Below are positions 6,765-19,018 of a stretch of 20,181 bases of DNA, in pieces. Under the pieces are notes generated by a model. It was not told the origin of the DNA, made no database searches, and saw nothing but the letters and a program-made list of their open reading frames with translations. The first letter of the stretch is position 1. Every line of letters starts with the position of its first letter. Source of the DNA: a virus. The stretch covers positions 1-20,181 of the IMG/VR virus record IMGVR_UViG_3300013100_000038; one strand, 5' to 3'. Position numbers and translations under genes: made by a program.

Positions 6765-7556
6765 ATGAAATATATCTCACCATCTATAGAAGAAACTGCA
6801 TTCAACTGTCCGCACTGTGGGGCATTAGCTAAACAGTTTTGGTCAAGTGTGTTCATTGACGTACATTCCGAAGATAAACCGCTTCCTAGACTTATTGATA
6901 AGTCTTTTCTTGATGATTTGGATCTTGGCGATATAAAGGATTCTGCTGAGCGAGAAAGACTTCATTCTTGGTTTGTACGGTTGGCAGGAGGCGCGCCTTT
7001 TATCGATGTTAAGGATGATGGCACTTATTTGAGGCGTCAAATTAAGAATTGCAATATTAGTAACTGTTTTAACTGTCAGAAAATTTCGATTTGGATCTAC
7101 GATAAATTAATGTATCCAGTTGTTGGGGGTGTTGTTCCTGCCAATTCCGATATGTCTGAAGATATTAGACGTGATTATGAAGAGGCTGGATCGATTCTAA
7201 ATCAGTCACCTCGTGGGGCTGCAGCGCTTTTAAGACTTGCCATTCAAAAGCTTTGCAAGGAACTCGGACAGCCTGGCGAGAATATTAACGAAGATATTAA
7301 GTCACTTGTTGCAGCCGGATTGGATGCAAGAGTTCAGCAATCGCTTGACGCCGTCCGCGTGATTGGTAACTCAGCTGTCCATCCTGGGAAAATTGATATT
7401 CGGGATGATCGTGCAACTGCTGAAGCTTTATTCAAACTTCTTAATTTGATTGTTGATAAAACTATTTCCGAACCCAAGCACATTAAAGAAATATATGAAT
7501 CGTTGCCTGAAAACCTCCGGGAGGCGATTGCTAAACGCGATACCCCTAAGTCATGA
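6765..7556 (+). CDS. Zinc-ribbon / DUF4145-like protein, probable cargo gene
   Basis: This 263-aa protein is not part of the P2 core. The N-terminus has CPHC (Cys15, Cys18), and a second pair is CFNC (Cys101, Cys104), with Cys96 nearby. Together they suggest a zinc ribbon interrupted by about 80 residues. The C-terminal half (~135-240) reads YEEAGSILNQSPRGAAALLRLAIQKLC and later VRVIGNSAVHPG, the signature of DUF4145, a helical domain seen alone or fused to restriction and other defence proteins. The specific activity is unknown. AAAGGA precedes the ATG at 6765. The gene is visibly richer in A+T than its neighbours and lies opposite the late operon. Its stop overlaps the gpS stop by six bases, which suggests insertion as a moron. 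Confidence 0.85.
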   Translation: MKYISPSIEETAFNCPHCGALAKQFWSSVFIDVHSEDKPLPRLIDKSFLDDLDLGDIKDSAERERLHSWFVRLAGGAPFIDVKDDGTYLRRQIKNCNISNCFNCQKISIWIYDKLMYPVVGGVVPANSDMSEDIRRDYEEAGSILNQSPRGAAALLRLAIQKLCKELGQPGENINEDIKSLVAAGLDARVQQSLDAVRVIGNSAVHPGKIDIRDDRATAEALFKLLNLIVDKTISEPKHIKEIYESLPENLREAIAKRDTPKS

Positions 7557-14390: not shown

Positions 14391-16148
14391 ATGACTACGA
14401 CCGCACTGCTGCCCATCGATCCCCGCCGCCAATCCAAGTTTCTCTACTGGATGGGTTGGCGCATCTGCGAGATTGCCGAGGCTACGGGCGAAAAGGAAAA
14501 AACGCTACACAGCTGGAAGGCCCGCGACGAGTGGGATCGGGCCGACAACGTCGAGCGAATTGGTGGGGCGTTGGAAGCGCGGCTTGTGCAGTTGATCCTG
14601 AAGGACAACAAGAGCGGCGGCGACTTCAAAGAGATCGACCTGCTGCACCGGCAGTTGGAGCGCCAAGCTCGGATCCAGCGCTTTCAAGGGGGCGGTACCG
14701 AAACCGACCTTAATCCGAACCTTGCCAAGCGCAACGCCGAGCCGAAGAAAAAGGCCGTCAAAAACGAGATTGATGAAGACCAGATCGAGCTGCTGCGCGA
14801 GGCCTTCATCGATGGCTGTTTTGACTACCAGAAGGACTGGTACCGCGCCGGCAATCAGCGCACACGCGTCATCCTCAAAAGTCGGCAGATCGGCGCGACG
14901 TACTACTTCGCCCGCGAGGCGTTCATCGATGCGCTGGACACCGGGCGCAACCAGATTTTCCTGTCGGCTTCGAAGAACCAGGCCTACCTGTTCCGGGGCT
15001 ACATTCAGGCGTTTTGCCGCGAAGTGATCGGCGTTGAACTGACCGGTGACCCCATCGTGTTGCCCAACGGCGCCGAGCTGTTTTTCCTCGGCACCAACGC
15101 CCGCACTGCCCAGGGCTACCACGGCAATTTCTACTTCGACGAATTCTTCTGGACGTTCAAATTCGAGGAATTGAACAAGGTCGCCTCGGGCATGGCGATG
15201 CACAAGAAGTGGCGCAAAACCTACTTTTCCACGCCGTCGAGCATGGCTCATGAGGCGTACACCTTCTGGACGGGCGAGCGCTTCAACAAGGGCAAGCCTG
15301 CTGCGCAGCATACGAAGGTGGACGTTTCCCACGGCTCATTGCAGCAGGGCCGATTTTGTGAGGATCGGCTGTGGCGCCAGATCGTCACGATTCTGGATGC
15401 GGAGCGGGGCGGGTGCGACCTGTTCGACATTGAAGAGCTGCGCCGCGAATACAGTCCCGAGGCGTTCGCCAACCTGCTGATGTGCGAGTTCGTCGACGAC
15501 GGCGCGAGCATCTTCCCGCTGACCCTTTTGCAGTCGTGCATGGTGGACAGCTGGGTCGAGTGGGCCGAGGACTACAAACCCTTTGCCATGCGCCCGTTTG
15601 GCGATCGACAAGTCTGGATTGGCTACGACCCGGCCGAGACGGGCGACTGTTCCGGCATGGTCGTGGTCGCGCCGCCCCTGGTACCGGGCGGCAAATTCCG
15701 CATCCTCGAACGCCACCAATTCCGGGGCATGGACTTCGCCGCACAAGCCGCGTTCATCAAAAGCGTCTGCGACCGCTACTGGGTGACCTACATCGGGATT
15801 GACGTGACCGGCCTGGGCAGCGGCGTGGCCCAGCTGGTGCGGCAGTTCTTCCCGGCGGTGACCACCTTCAGCTACTCGCCCGAAGTCAAAACCCGCTTGG
15901 TACTCAAGGCCTACGACGTAATCCACAAGGGCCGGCTCGAATTCGATGCTGGCTGGACCGACATGGCCCAGTCGCTGATGGCGATCCGCAAGACCATCAC
16001 CGCCGGCGGACGCCAGTACACCTACACCGCCGGCCGCAACGACAACACCGGCCACGCCGACCTGGCCTGGGCGCTCTTTCACGCATTGCACCACGAACCG
16101 CTTGAGGGGCAGACCACTGCCAACACCGGGCGCATGGAGATTTACTGA
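14391..16148 (+). CDS. P: Terminase large (ATPase) subunit gpP
   Basis: This 585-aa protein (P2 gpP about 590 aa) powers DNA packaging. It has an N-terminal helix-turn-helix (residues ~22-43, ICEIAEATGEKEKTLHSWK) and the TGGDFKEID-like SGGDFKEID linker. The Walker A-like segment is LKSRQIGAT (162-170) and Walker B is YFDEFFW (248-254). An RNase H-like C-terminal domain has candidate metal-binding Asp413 (GYDPAETGD), Asp471 (GIDVTG) and Asp557 (HADLAW). The start has no clear Shine-Dalgarno. It is transcribed away from O and coupled to Q by a one-base stop/start overlap (TGATG). Confidence 0.97.
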   Translation: MTTTALLPIDPRRQSKFLYWMGWRICEIAEATGEKEKTLHSWKARDEWDRADNVERIGGALEARLVQLILKDNKSGGDFKEIDLLHRQLERQARIQRFQGGGTETDLNPNLAKRNAEPKKKAVKNEIDEDQIELLREAFIDGCFDYQKDWYRAGNQRTRVILKSRQIGATYYFAREAFIDALDTGRNQIFLSASKNQAYLFRGYIQAFCREVIGVELTGDPIVLPNGAELFFLGTNARTAQGYHGNFYFDEFFWTFKFEELNKVASGMAMHKKWRKTYFSTPSSMAHEAYTFWTGERFNKGKPAAQHTKVDVSHGSLQQGRFCEDRLWRQIVTILDAERGGCDLFDIEELRREYSPEAFANLLMCEFVDDGASIFPLTLLQSCMVDSWVEWAEDYKPFAMRPFGDRQVWIGYDPAETGDCSGMVVVAPPLVPGGKFRILERHQFRGMDFAAQAAFIKSVCDRYWVTYIGIDVTGLGSGVAQLVRQFFPAVTTFSYSPEVKTRLVLKAYDVIHKGRLEFDAGWTDMAQSLMAIRKTITAGGRQYTYTAGRNDNTGHADLAWALFHALHHEPLEGQTTANTGRMEIY

Positions 16149-17170
16149 TGACCGAACCACTCGCCAGCCAGACGTTGCCCGCGACGACACCCGCCACTGG
16201 CGCGGGGACTCAGGTGTTTTCCTTTGGCGAGCCGACGCCGGTGCTGGGTGGCCGGGAGGTTTTCGATTACCTGGAATGCTGGTTCAACGGGCGGTGGTAT
16301 GAGCCGCCGCTGTCATTGGATGGACTAGCCCGGTCGGTGGGAGCGAGTGTGCATCTGCATTCCGGGTTGATGTTCAAGCGCAATCTGTTGAGCAAGACAT
16401 TTATCCCGCATCCGCTGCTGTCGCGGGCTTCGTTTGAGCAGTTTGCTTTGGACTTTCTGTGCCTGGGCAATGGCTACCTTGAAGGGCGCCGCTCGCGGTT
16501 GGGCGGGGTGCGCAAATTGGAAACGCCGTTGGCCAAGTACATGCGCGCTGGGCCGGAAGGGCAGTTCTATCAGGTGCGTGGGTGGAAGGACGAACACGCC
16601 TTTGACCAGGACAGCATTTTTCACCTGCGTGAGGCGGATCTGCACCAGGAAATTTATGGACTGCCGGAATGGATCAGCGCGTTGCAGTCGGCGCTTTTGA
16701 ACGAGTCGGCGACGTTGTTTCGGCGCAAGTATTACGAGAACGGGAGTCATGCCGGGTTCATCTTGTACATGACGGATGCGGCGCAGACCGAGGCGGACAT
16801 TGACGCATTGCGTAAGGCTCTGAAGGAATCGAAGGGGCCAGGCAATTTCCGGAATTTGTTCGTCTACTCGCCGACCGGCAAGAAGGACGGGATCCAGCTG
16901 ATCCCCGTCAGCGAGGTCGCGGCGAAGGATGAATTCAACTCGATCAAGAATCAGACGCGGGATGACGTGCTGGCAAACCTGCGGATTCCACCGCAGCTGA
17001 TGGGAATTGTTCCGCAGAACGCGGGGGGGTTTGGGTCGATTCGGGAGGCGGCGCAGATTTACGCGGCCAATGAACTGGAGCCGATTCAGACGCGAATGAT
17101 GCAGTTGAACGACTGGCTTGGTGAGGAAGTTGTCCGATTCAGAGCATACGAAATCGGGCAAGAGAGTTAA
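16148..17170 (+). CDS. Q: Portal protein gpQ
   Basis: This 340-aa protein (P2 gpQ 344 aa) belongs to the phage portal family. Family blocks include VFSFGEPTPVL, SVHLHSGLMFKRN, FLCLGNGYLE, IFHLREADLHQEIYGLPEWISALQSALLNESATLFRRKYYENGSHAGFILYMTDA and NLRIPPQLMGIVPQNAGGFGSI. It forms the ring at one capsid vertex through which DNA enters and to which the tail joins. In P2, Q lies next to cos and is read toward it. Here the same orientation holds, but two accessory genes lie between Q and the probable cos. Confidence 0.97.
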   Translation: MTEPLASQTLPATTPATGAGTQVFSFGEPTPVLGGREVFDYLECWFNGRWYEPPLSLDGLARSVGASVHLHSGLMFKRNLLSKTFIPHPLLSRASFEQFALDFLCLGNGYLEGRRSRLGGVRKLETPLAKYMRAGPEGQFYQVRGWKDEHAFDQDSIFHLREADLHQEIYGLPEWISALQSALLNESATLFRRKYYENGSHAGFILYMTDAAQTEADIDALRKALKESKGPGNFRNLFVYSPTGKKDGIQLIPVSEVAAKDEFNSIKNQTRDDVLANLRIPPQLMGIVPQNAGGFGSIREAAQIYAANELEPIQTRMMQLNDWLGEEVVRFRAYEIGQES

Positions 17171-17189
17171 CTTTGAGTCGATTTCAAAG
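17171..17189. repeat. Inverted repeat at the portal/cargo junction
   Basis: CTTTGA (17171-17176) and TCAAAG (17184-17189) flank seven bases, immediately after the Q stop codon. It marks the boundary between the GC-rich phage core and the AT-rich accessory gene. It is too short and has no T-tract to call a terminator; an operator or insertion scar is possible. Confidence 0.35.
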
Positions 17190-17293
17190 TGGGGCTGGTC
17201 TGGTCGCTGAAGAAACCTGGCTTTAATGCTTTGGAAGTTGCGGAAGGTTTGTGGCTTAATCGTTTTTCTCAGCCAAGGACTGTCGGAGTCACC

Positions 17294-18112
17294 GTGATCT
17301 ACGAAAAGAAAGAAGAGACGAATGGTAAATATATTCTCGGGGTGGCCTTGCTGGCATGTGTTTTAATCATTGAGTTGTTCTATCTGTATGCGGATTTTTC
17401 GAAAGAGTTTTGGGGGATTAAATTTGTTGATGTGGCAAATATTATTGCCCAATTTGCCACGGCGGCCGCATTTTATTTAGGTTTTCATCAGTATCATAGG
17501 AATAAAAAGGTAGAGCGGCAGGCAGTTATAGTATTGGAGTGTAAGAATTTAATATTGAAGATGGTGGCCGTAAGCAAGGAGTTTGATGTCGGAGAGGGTA
17601 CTAGTTTCTCCAATATTAAATATTGCTGTACAAAACTTGGCAATCTTGGGTCTGACTTTAATGTGTTGTTTACTGCCTTAGATGAAGGCATTCAAAAAGC
17701 AATAGTTAGGATGCACTGGCAGGAAATGTATTTTAATGAGCTTCTGCACGTGATGCAGGGTCTTGAGCTGCGCTCGGCCGTTAGCTCTACTGATGGCGAA
17801 AAGTTGTATTATTTTGTCGTTCGAGATGATGCTCGTAGGAAAGCTAAAGCTGAAAATGTTTTAGAGGTTTTTTTAAACTATTTTATTTTAAAGGAGGTTT
17901 TAACTCATTACGCTGAGTCGGAGTTGTTAGGCTTTACGTTTGAATTCTCGGATCTTTATTTTTTCTTTCTGTTCTTTTTTGAAAGTAAATACACAAATGA
18001 TTATATGTATGGAAATATGGCGCGGTTGGATGTTAGAGCGAGAGCGCCAATGATTGCCGCTATAAAGGATGTGTATAAAATCGACATCGAAATGTTTGCT
18101 CCAAAAAAATAA
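17294..18112 (+). CDS. Two-transmembrane accessory protein, candidate exclusion gene
   Basis: No known family is recognised. The frame opens at GTG 17189, but GTG at 17294 has GGAG five bases upstream and gives 272 aa. Two hydrophobic segments lie near the N-terminus (ILGVALLACVLIIELFYLYADF and VANIIAQFATAAAFYLGFHQY). A basic stretch (HRNKKVERQ) and a helical, Phe/Tyr-rich cytoplasmic domain of about 180 residues follow. Base composition and codon use are far more AT-rich than in Q. It is co-directional with Q and convergent with the next gene. P2-like phages carry tin, old and other exclusion genes in this cos-proximal interval. That context suggests a membrane-linked anti-phage or superinfection-exclusion role, but this is inference. 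Confidence 0.75.
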   Translation: MIYEKKEETNGKYILGVALLACVLIIELFYLYADFSKEFWGIKFVDVANIIAQFATAAAFYLGFHQYHRNKKVERQAVIVLECKNLILKMVAVSKEFDVGEGTSFSNIKYCCTKLGNLGSDFNVLFTALDEGIQKAIVRMHWQEMYFNELLHVMQGLELRSAVSSTDGEKLYYFVVRDDARRKAKAENVLEVFLNYFILKEVLTHYAESELLGFTFEFSDLYFFFLFFFESKYTNDYMYGNMARLDVRARAPMIAAIKDVYKIDIEMFAPKK

Positions 18113-18141: not shown

Positions 18142-18849
18142 TTAAGGTTTAGTCACAAAACCTTTACCCGAGCAGATCGGACATTCTTCGCTTTGTCCGA
18201 ATCGGTCACGACAGACGGGGCATGTGCAGAAAGCTGCTGACTCGATAAAGGGGCGTAGCTTTTCAAACGCGTGCAAGTCCCTCTCTTCTTGAGCAACCTG
18301 TGCCGCATTAACCAGAGCACGATAAGTGTCCGGATCGTCTAGGGGTTTACGGTCAACTCCGGCAATCACCCGGTCAGTTTCAATCAGCCGGTATCGTCGT
18401 CCATTCATTTCTAGGATCAGTCCTACGATTTTCCCGATCTTCCGGGAAAGACCCATAGTCAATCGCACACCGTCCGTATCGGAGTAAACCTTCCCGTCAT
18501 AGGTAGACGAGGCGCCGCGCGGTTCCTCAGTCGTGAAGTTGAAGATCGAGCGGCTGATTGTGCCCAGCAGCTTGCCATTGGTGACCTGCACGACGTTGTA
18601 GGTCGATGCGCCACGGTAGTGATCAGGTGAATTCTGCAGTTCCTCGACGGTGTGCCAGTAGGCTGCGTCTGCCATCTCGTTCATATCAAACCGTTCAAGC
18701 TGATCGATCAGCCCCTCGTCAAACAACGCAGCTGCCATCTCGTGGAGTGTTTCCCGGTGCGCCTCGGGGTTTTGCATTCGAAAGTCCTTATCGTCGAGGG
18801 TCAAACGCCATCGCTGCATCCTGAGAGCTTTAGCCTGTCCGAAGTTCAT
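18142..18849 (-). CDS. SOS-controlled protein with C-terminal zinc ribbon
   Basis: This 235-aa protein is not in the P2 core and its family is not recognised. The N-terminal third is helical and charged (AHRETLHEMAAALFDEGLIDQLERFDMNEMADAAYWHTVEEL). The middle has beta-type sequence, including GLILEMNGRRYRLIETD. The C-terminus has CPVC and CPIC separated by nine residues, a CxxC...CxxC ribbon followed by SGKGF, as in DnaJ-like zinc modules. ATG 18849 is preferred. A GTG at 18867 lies only three bases from the LexA box, and neither start has a good Shine-Dalgarno. The near-perfect LexA box just upstream implies DNA-damage induction. It may be an antirepressor-like switch, as Tum is in phage 186, but it shows no DinI/Tum similarity that I can see. 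Confidence 0.8.
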   Translation of the reverse strand: MNFGQAKALRMQRWRLTLDDKDFRMQNPEAHRETLHEMAAALFDEGLIDQLERFDMNEMADAAYWHTVEELQNSPDHYRGASTYNVVQVTNGKLLGTISRSIFNFTTEEPRGASSTYDGKVYSDTDGVRLTMGLSRKIGKIVGLILEMNGRRYRLIETDRVIAGVDRKPLDDPDTYRALVNAAQVAQEERDLHAFEKLRPFIESAAFCTCPVCRDRFGQSEECPICSGKGFVTKP

Positions 18850-18870
18850 GAAAATCAATCGCTGCACAAA

Positions 18871-18890
18871 TACTGTATGTGCGTACAGTA
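18871..18890. promoter_or_regulatory. LexA (SOS) box
   Basis: TACTGTATGTGCGTACAGTA is a perfect 7-bp-arm palindrome that contains CTGT-N8-ACAG. It matches the Escherichia coli LexA consensus at 16 of 20 positions by eye and fits the pseudomonad CTGT-N8-ACAG pattern. It ends 21 bases before the ATG of the minus-strand zinc-ribbon gene. No plus-strand gene lies downstream, so that gene is the evident target. Confidence 0.85.
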
Positions 18891-18953
18891 ATTGGCTCGG
18901 TGGGTTAACGCGAGCGTGGGGCGACGAGCTGTCACGAAACTGGGGGAATTGGC

Positions 18954-18999: not shown

Positions 19000-19018
19000 G
19001 TCGTCCCCCCACCTCGCC
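19000..19018 (-). other. cos: Probable cos site (packaging cohesive-end core)
   Basis: The minus strand reads GGCGAGGTGGGGGGACGAC. The P2 cohesive end as I recall it is GGCGAGGCGGGGAAAGCAC, giving 14 of 19 identical bases, including the first seven. Orientation also fits: reading from this core along the minus strand one meets Q on the complementary strand, then P, then O, as from the P2 left end. Here terminase M/P would make staggered cuts to give 19-base ends. Two accessory genes lie between it and Q. Confidence 0.65.

Follow-up and report, generated by a model that had tools for sequence, protein, structure and literature searches.

A very likely LexA-controlled Pseudomonas prophage gene and its candidate role beside SRAP on damaged DNA

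The 235-aa gene described here, which lies near the probable cos of a P2-like Pseudomonas prophage, is very likely repressed by LexA, and is more likely to encode a DNA-damage helper than a new induction switch, because a LexA box is near-universal upstream of its relatives and an SRAP gene is often found next door. The explanation we favour, with a probability of just over one half, is that the gene is portable prophage cargo under LexA repression whose product assists a protein of the SRAP/YedK type on damaged DNA. According to this explanation, host LexA would hold the promoter closed until DNA damage leads RecA to trigger LexA cleavage, whereupon the promoter would open in the manner of host SOS genes. 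The product, predicted to be a helical and beta protein with a C-terminal zinc ribbon, would most likely assist the SRAP/YedK-type protein that is encoded just downstream in most relatives and that traps abasic sites in single-stranded DNA, with the outcome that host and phage DNA could survive damage around prophage induction. Because no SRAP gene occupies the slot in the phage analysed here, its protein would use the host SRAP or act alone.

The predicted LexA box and its surroundings

The whole stretch of DNA that was analysed, referred to as the window, is a virus record of 20,181 bases and represents part of a P2-like Pseudomonas prophage, in which P2-type capsid, terminase and portal genes were recognised by profile search. 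The portal gene is followed by a 307-aa gene, the 235-aa gene and then a non-coding stretch with the probable cos (Table 1). The placement of the 235-aa gene between portal and cos in the preliminary description thus stands, with the addition that the plus-strand 307-aa gene separates it from the portal. The cos assignment draws on the resemblance of GGCGAGGTGGGGGGACGAC to what we take to be the P2 cos, and many P2-like relatives likewise have the motif GGCGAGGNGGGG on the far side of the portal. The 307-aa gene is accessory cargo outside the SOS unit; a small number of other P2-like phages encode relatives of its protein, 51-75% identical, at the corresponding position. A further cargo gene, of the PD-T7-4-like defence type (6765-7556, plus strand; PADLOC E 4e-82, Pfam DUF4145), is located in the tail region of the window, where the flanking tail genes are on the opposite strand.

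Table 1. Features of the window around the 235-aa gene
Feature	Position	Strand	Basis
Portal protein, P2 Q type, slot boundary	16148..17170	+	Profile match
307-aa membrane-type protein, convergent with the putative SOS gene	17189..18112	+	ORF in portal-cos slot
Putative SOS gene, 235 aa, phrog_19595 family	18142..18849	-	Start by conservation; purifying selection
GTGCAG, in the place of the conserved third half-site GTACAG 3' of the box	18862..18867	-	Comparison of relatives
Predicted LexA box TACTGTACGCACATACAGTA (gene direction), core 18873-18888	18871..18890	-	Conserved in relatives
Conserved upstream element CAGCTCGTCGCCCCACGCTCGC, with constant spacing to the LexA box	18910..18931	-	Comparison of relatives
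Probable cos, GGCGAGGTGGGGGGACGAC	19000..19018	-	Motif shared with P2-like relatives

The palindrome TACTGTATGTGCGTACAGTA is present as originally claimed, just 5' of the ATG at 18849; this ATG (MNF..), and not the GTG at 18867, is the start conserved among relatives. CTGT-N8-ACAG occurs once in the window, which is unremarkable alone because 0.24 occurrences are expected by chance (the average of shuffled windows). That a palindrome of this type appeared in 19 of 100 shuffled windows favours the reading of a chance or non-LexA site, with the gene outside SOS control. Relatives were gathered from virus contigs and genomes and yielded 97 distinct upstream regions, a number that counts distinct sequences and not independent events, many of the relatives being close and from metagenome contigs. 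The strict palindrome was found at positions -65 to -20 in 86 of these regions (shuffled mean 0.05), and the half-sites CTG-N10-CAG at the same positions in 95 (shuffled mean 1.2), a conservation by which a chance palindrome was ruled out. In the aligned set, which was itself selected by that motif, CTG and CAG were invariant and the adjoining outer letters nearly so, while the centre of the box was free to vary (CTGTACATGCATACAG, CTGTATGCGCATACAG, CTGTATATAAACACAG and others). The box was kept at 30% protein identity, in phages LPPA36 and Meadow, and was also found in subfamilies at 27-40% identity with differing box sequences. Furthermore, a search with a similar pattern of a complete Pseudomonas genome containing a sister prophage gave 11 matches, as opposed to none for the reversed control. 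These matches include the 235-aa gene family as well as genes that, named from their sequence, we take to be a UmuD-like gene, a host SRAP gene and a radical-SAM gene.

As the box is conserved in relatives and the pattern recovers likely host SOS genes, LexA repression of the 235-aa gene is very likely, and its SOS control, which had initially been proposed from one palindrome, is strongly supported by the comparison of promoters; a site unrelated to LexA is hardly credible. Other elements of the promoter are less uniform. A third half-site, GTACAG, is conserved just 3' of the box but is missing in divergent subfamilies, and the GTGCAG in its place in the window is possibly a -10 element or an extra LexA contact. 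In the window, TTACTG is followed at about 17 bp by a weak -10, which is clearer in divergent relatives (TATAAG, TAATAA). Literature searches found no published expression data for the phrog_19595 family. A copy of the gene with the LexA box CTGTACATAAAACCAG was also observed at locus L118 (9216-9926), adjoining an rmuC-like gene.

The encoded protein and the SRAP neighbour in relatives

The 235-aa protein matched phrog_19595 (PHROGs v4), a PHROG with no recorded function, over its full length (residues 5-234, E 2.2e-87). The family is widespread in Pseudomonas prophages, both P2-like and of other kinds, and most carriers are not P2-like and have the gene elsewhere than in the portal-cos slot; the gene is hence a member of a widespread uncharacterised family and not peculiar to this P2-like phage. 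Values of dN/dS among close relatives were 0.07-0.20, indicating purifying selection. The C-terminal CxxC...CxxC that had been pointed out is invariant among relatives, where it takes the form C-x2-C-x-D-x-F...C-x2-C-x-G-x-GF, the four Cys and GxGF being unchanged throughout a diverse alignment. The motif is zinc-ribbon-like and may well bind zinc. Its profile match to the DnaJ zinc region was weak (E 0.21), and the DnaJ-type zinc finger has four CxxCxGxG repeats where the 235-aa protein has one CxxC and one CxxCxGxG. The cut-off was reached by none of the Pfam and NCBIfam families, and PADLOC gave LmuB alone, with a marginal E of 0.0095; matches to RING finger, DUF3323, UPF0047 and LmuB were set aside as marginal, and those to methionyl-tRNA synthetase and CD-NTase-associated profiles (E 0.01-0.05) were absent from the fold searches. 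The PF02586 domain with its MCGR start is absent, and the protein is accordingly not itself an SRAP.

AlphaFold modelling led to no convincing fold match and to none that points to a biochemical function. Sequences of annotated phage records were left out of the modelling. With a diverse alignment the pLDDT was 86.6, compared with 64 for an alignment of close relatives only. The predicted structure consists of a helical domain at residues 1-72 and a beta domain at 82-167, along with two helices and the Cys motif. Foldseek searches against solved and viral structures gave no match at E <= 0.001; only helical-bundle look-alikes were returned, for residues 1-75, and the listed fold matches cover mostly the helical N-terminus. 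Small proteins consisting of the N-terminal helical domain alone are common in Pseudomonas (for example L096 2178-2384, L104 and phrog_6137), and one such relative was found with a LexA box and an SRAP of its own.

The gene following that of the 235-aa family encodes an SRAP protein (PF02586) in 55 of the 97 distinct relatives, at every identity tier, leaving about 43% of distinct relatives without an adjacent SRAP. The spacing is mostly 5-31 nt and about 270 nt in one subfamily. The neighbouring SRAP matched E. coli YedK, the 'abasic site processing protein', over its whole length (E about 1e-48) with the MCGR start kept. The most divergent group, about 30% identical to the protein of the window, has a separate lineage of SRAP, which shares 47-48% identity with the reference SRAP, so that the link is old. 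In the genome with the sister prophage, the gene that we take to be the host SRAP likewise has a LexA box. SRAP genes have been described as generally present in SOS neighbourhoods and prophages, and Zn-ribbon proteins are encoded in some SRAP operons (PMC3765255). Assistance to an SRAP protein is thereby the most likely role, although adjacency falls short of proof and neither the window nor the P2-like phages closest to it have the SRAP gene. The comparison establishes the conserved box, the operon-like arrangement with SRAP in relatives, purifying selection and the presence of the gene in several phage kinds, and from these LexA binding, induction, zinc binding and a physical or functional partnership with SRAP are inferred; control by LexA, the link to SRAP and phage-to-phage spread would each be new for phrog_19595.

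The SRAP neighbour also bears on the possibility that the gene encodes an SOS-induced growth inhibitor or toxin directed against the host. Small LexA-controlled effectors of this sort are known, and a host target might be bound through a zinc ribbon. However, the conserved partner is a repair protein, no similarity to toxins or antitoxins was detected among Pfam, NCBIfam and PADLOC profiles, and no antitoxin-like partner was seen, making a toxin decidedly improbable.

Switch, effector or slot cargo

Two roles had been put forward in the preliminary description. That of an SOS-triggered effector fits better, given the coupling to SRAP, whereas that of a new SOS switch is weakly supported in view of the lack of Tum or DinI similarity and the repeated transfer of the gene. 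A switch would act in the manner of Tum, as an antirepressor under LexA control that induces the prophage by binding the phage repressor. Such proteins have precedents in Tum, AntC and GfoA/GftA (PMC3121763), and the P2-like carriers offer a setting for one: among the 10 with records of at least 31 kb, none has an S24 repressor, their repressors being short HTH proteins without the S24 domain. In the near-complete sister record G002 (39.9 kb), the repressor is a 126-aa HTH protein and a scan found the gene's own box as the sole LexA-like box, so that the gene could be the only SOS link of P2-like carriers. An S24 match in the 86.7-kb record G003 was rejected as a P2-like repressor, its ORFs placing it in a neighbouring non-P2 prophage, and this record was left out of the repressor comparison.

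Several observations nevertheless make an antirepressor unlikely. Neither Tum of phage 186 (best E 14) nor orf97 of the same phage showed similarity to the 235-aa protein, which also gave no DinI match at E up to 1, compared with 1.8e-17 for the control, 186 Tum. Tum is sited between gene A and cos, whereas the 235-aa gene lies between cos and portal. P2-like phages share about 85% identity in the protein but only 22% in their repressors, over the HTH region, and the tree requires the gene to have switched at least five times between P2-like phages and other kinds, the kind being assigned from marker genes within the fetched stretch. All 11 of the non-P2 carriers checked have an S24 protein, probably a self-cleaving repressor, and for this reason would be SOS inducible without the gene. 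This co-occurrence does not settle the matter, as FsoA works as an antirepressor in Fels-1 even though that phage is induced through cleavage of its repressor (PMC3121763). A gene with an AntA antirepressor domain is already present in one of the P2-like relatives that were checked, the gene of interest is coupled to SRAP, and the copy at L118 has its box in a chromosomal setting where no phage structural genes were recognised. Genes of the AntA/AntB antirepressor-domain type were noted just after the repressor region in the P2-like relatives L237 (10235-10840, Pfam) and L235 (17625-18224, near-identical by eye).

The position of the gene raises a further possibility, namely that it is SOS-induced anti-phage or superinfection-exclusion cargo of a cos-proximal hotspot. 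In P2-like phages, antiviral systems are known to cluster in the A-cos-Q region (PMC9122126), and the content of the portal-cos slot was highly variable across 80 P2-like relatives, with the phrog_19595 family present in eight. Against such a role, which we consider quite unlikely, stand the near-universal LexA box, the frequent SRAP neighbour, the lone marginal LmuB match with PADLOC, and the fact that most carriers are not P2-like and have the gene outside the hotspot. In about nine of the 80 relatives, an unrelated LexA box with a different upstream sequence directly drives a different SRAP, so that a LexA-controlled SRAP appears to have entered the slot more than once. This second promoter type, with GGCAATAGGGCCTAGAATTGAAAAGCTCATGACGCACG upstream, drives SRAP in some P2-like phages and precedes other or broken ORFs at L265, L267, L278, L286, L290, L315 and L316. 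In the sister prophage, an OLD-like ATPase/TOPRIM gene was observed beyond cos (L126 18185-19561), matching the position of old in P2.

A proposed composite promoter and comparison with known systems

Upstream of the LexA box, an element CTCGTCGCC is found at a fixed 38 bp (start to start), in most relatives in the form CAGCTCGTCGCC..CTCGC. Sequences beyond the element are unrelated between phages, so the shared module begins at about this point. The element was ruled out as part of cos, as it occurs outside P2-like phages too and the probable cos is 70-90 bp further on; it is probably the site of a second regulator. When 299 Pseudomonas genomes were searched with a joint pattern of element and box, 26 sites were found, in 22 of the genomes (reversed control, 0), and these were always 55 or 56 bp overall though the pattern permitted 21 spacings. 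Eleven of the sites are followed by the 235-aa gene family and the other 15 by coiled-coil genes of an unrelated family, whose proteins have 93-149 aa and typically the sequence MNIDEDT..WLGCPTPLEM (L130, L131, L133, L135, L139-L141, L144-L147 and L151-L154, all in Pseudomonas genomes), with SRAP downstream of the coiled-coil gene at three loci (L135, L140 and L152). A broader and more tentative proposal is that a mobile composite SOS promoter, made up of the LexA box and the fixed upstream site for a second regulator, is spread across unrelated Pseudomonas prophages with interchangeable first genes, for a zinc-ribbon or a coiled-coil protein, and often with SRAP; this would constitute a DNA-lesion response unit whose first gene encodes a new SRAP partner.

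If the favoured explanation of LexA-repressed cargo assisting SRAP is true, a transferable SOS unit centred on the protection of abasic sites is present in many Pseudomonas prophages, and the phrog_19595 family is a probable SRAP partner through which it becomes possible to test what SRAP does in prophages, a role that is poorly understood. It would also caution against taking a LexA box near cos for an induction switch. Were the antirepressor reading true instead, P2-like Pseudomonas phages would have become SOS inducible in a way that is unrelated to Tum.

Among known systems, the tum-orf97 operon of phage 186 (NC_001317) is likewise LexA-controlled and near cos in a P2-family phage; the 235-aa gene differs from it in sequence and in having no DinI domain, and is read away from cos, whereas Tum is read towards cos from the other side. 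The antirepressors GfoA/GftA/FsoA and AntC (PMC3121763) are also LexA-controlled and encoded outside the immunity region of their prophages, but the 235-aa protein is larger, has the four-Cys motif, is often encoded beside SRAP and would be a putative antirepressor at most. The P2-like cos-proximal hotspot (old/tin; PMC9122126) similarly has cargo that is swapped in the interval from portal Q to cos. In the slot analysed here, LexA boxes precede several of the cargo genes; the text of PMC9122126 makes no mention of LexA or SOS. Finally, SRAP/YedK (PF02586) shares the link to LexA with the 235-aa gene, which itself encodes no SRAP and is found, in the window, without an SRAP gene.
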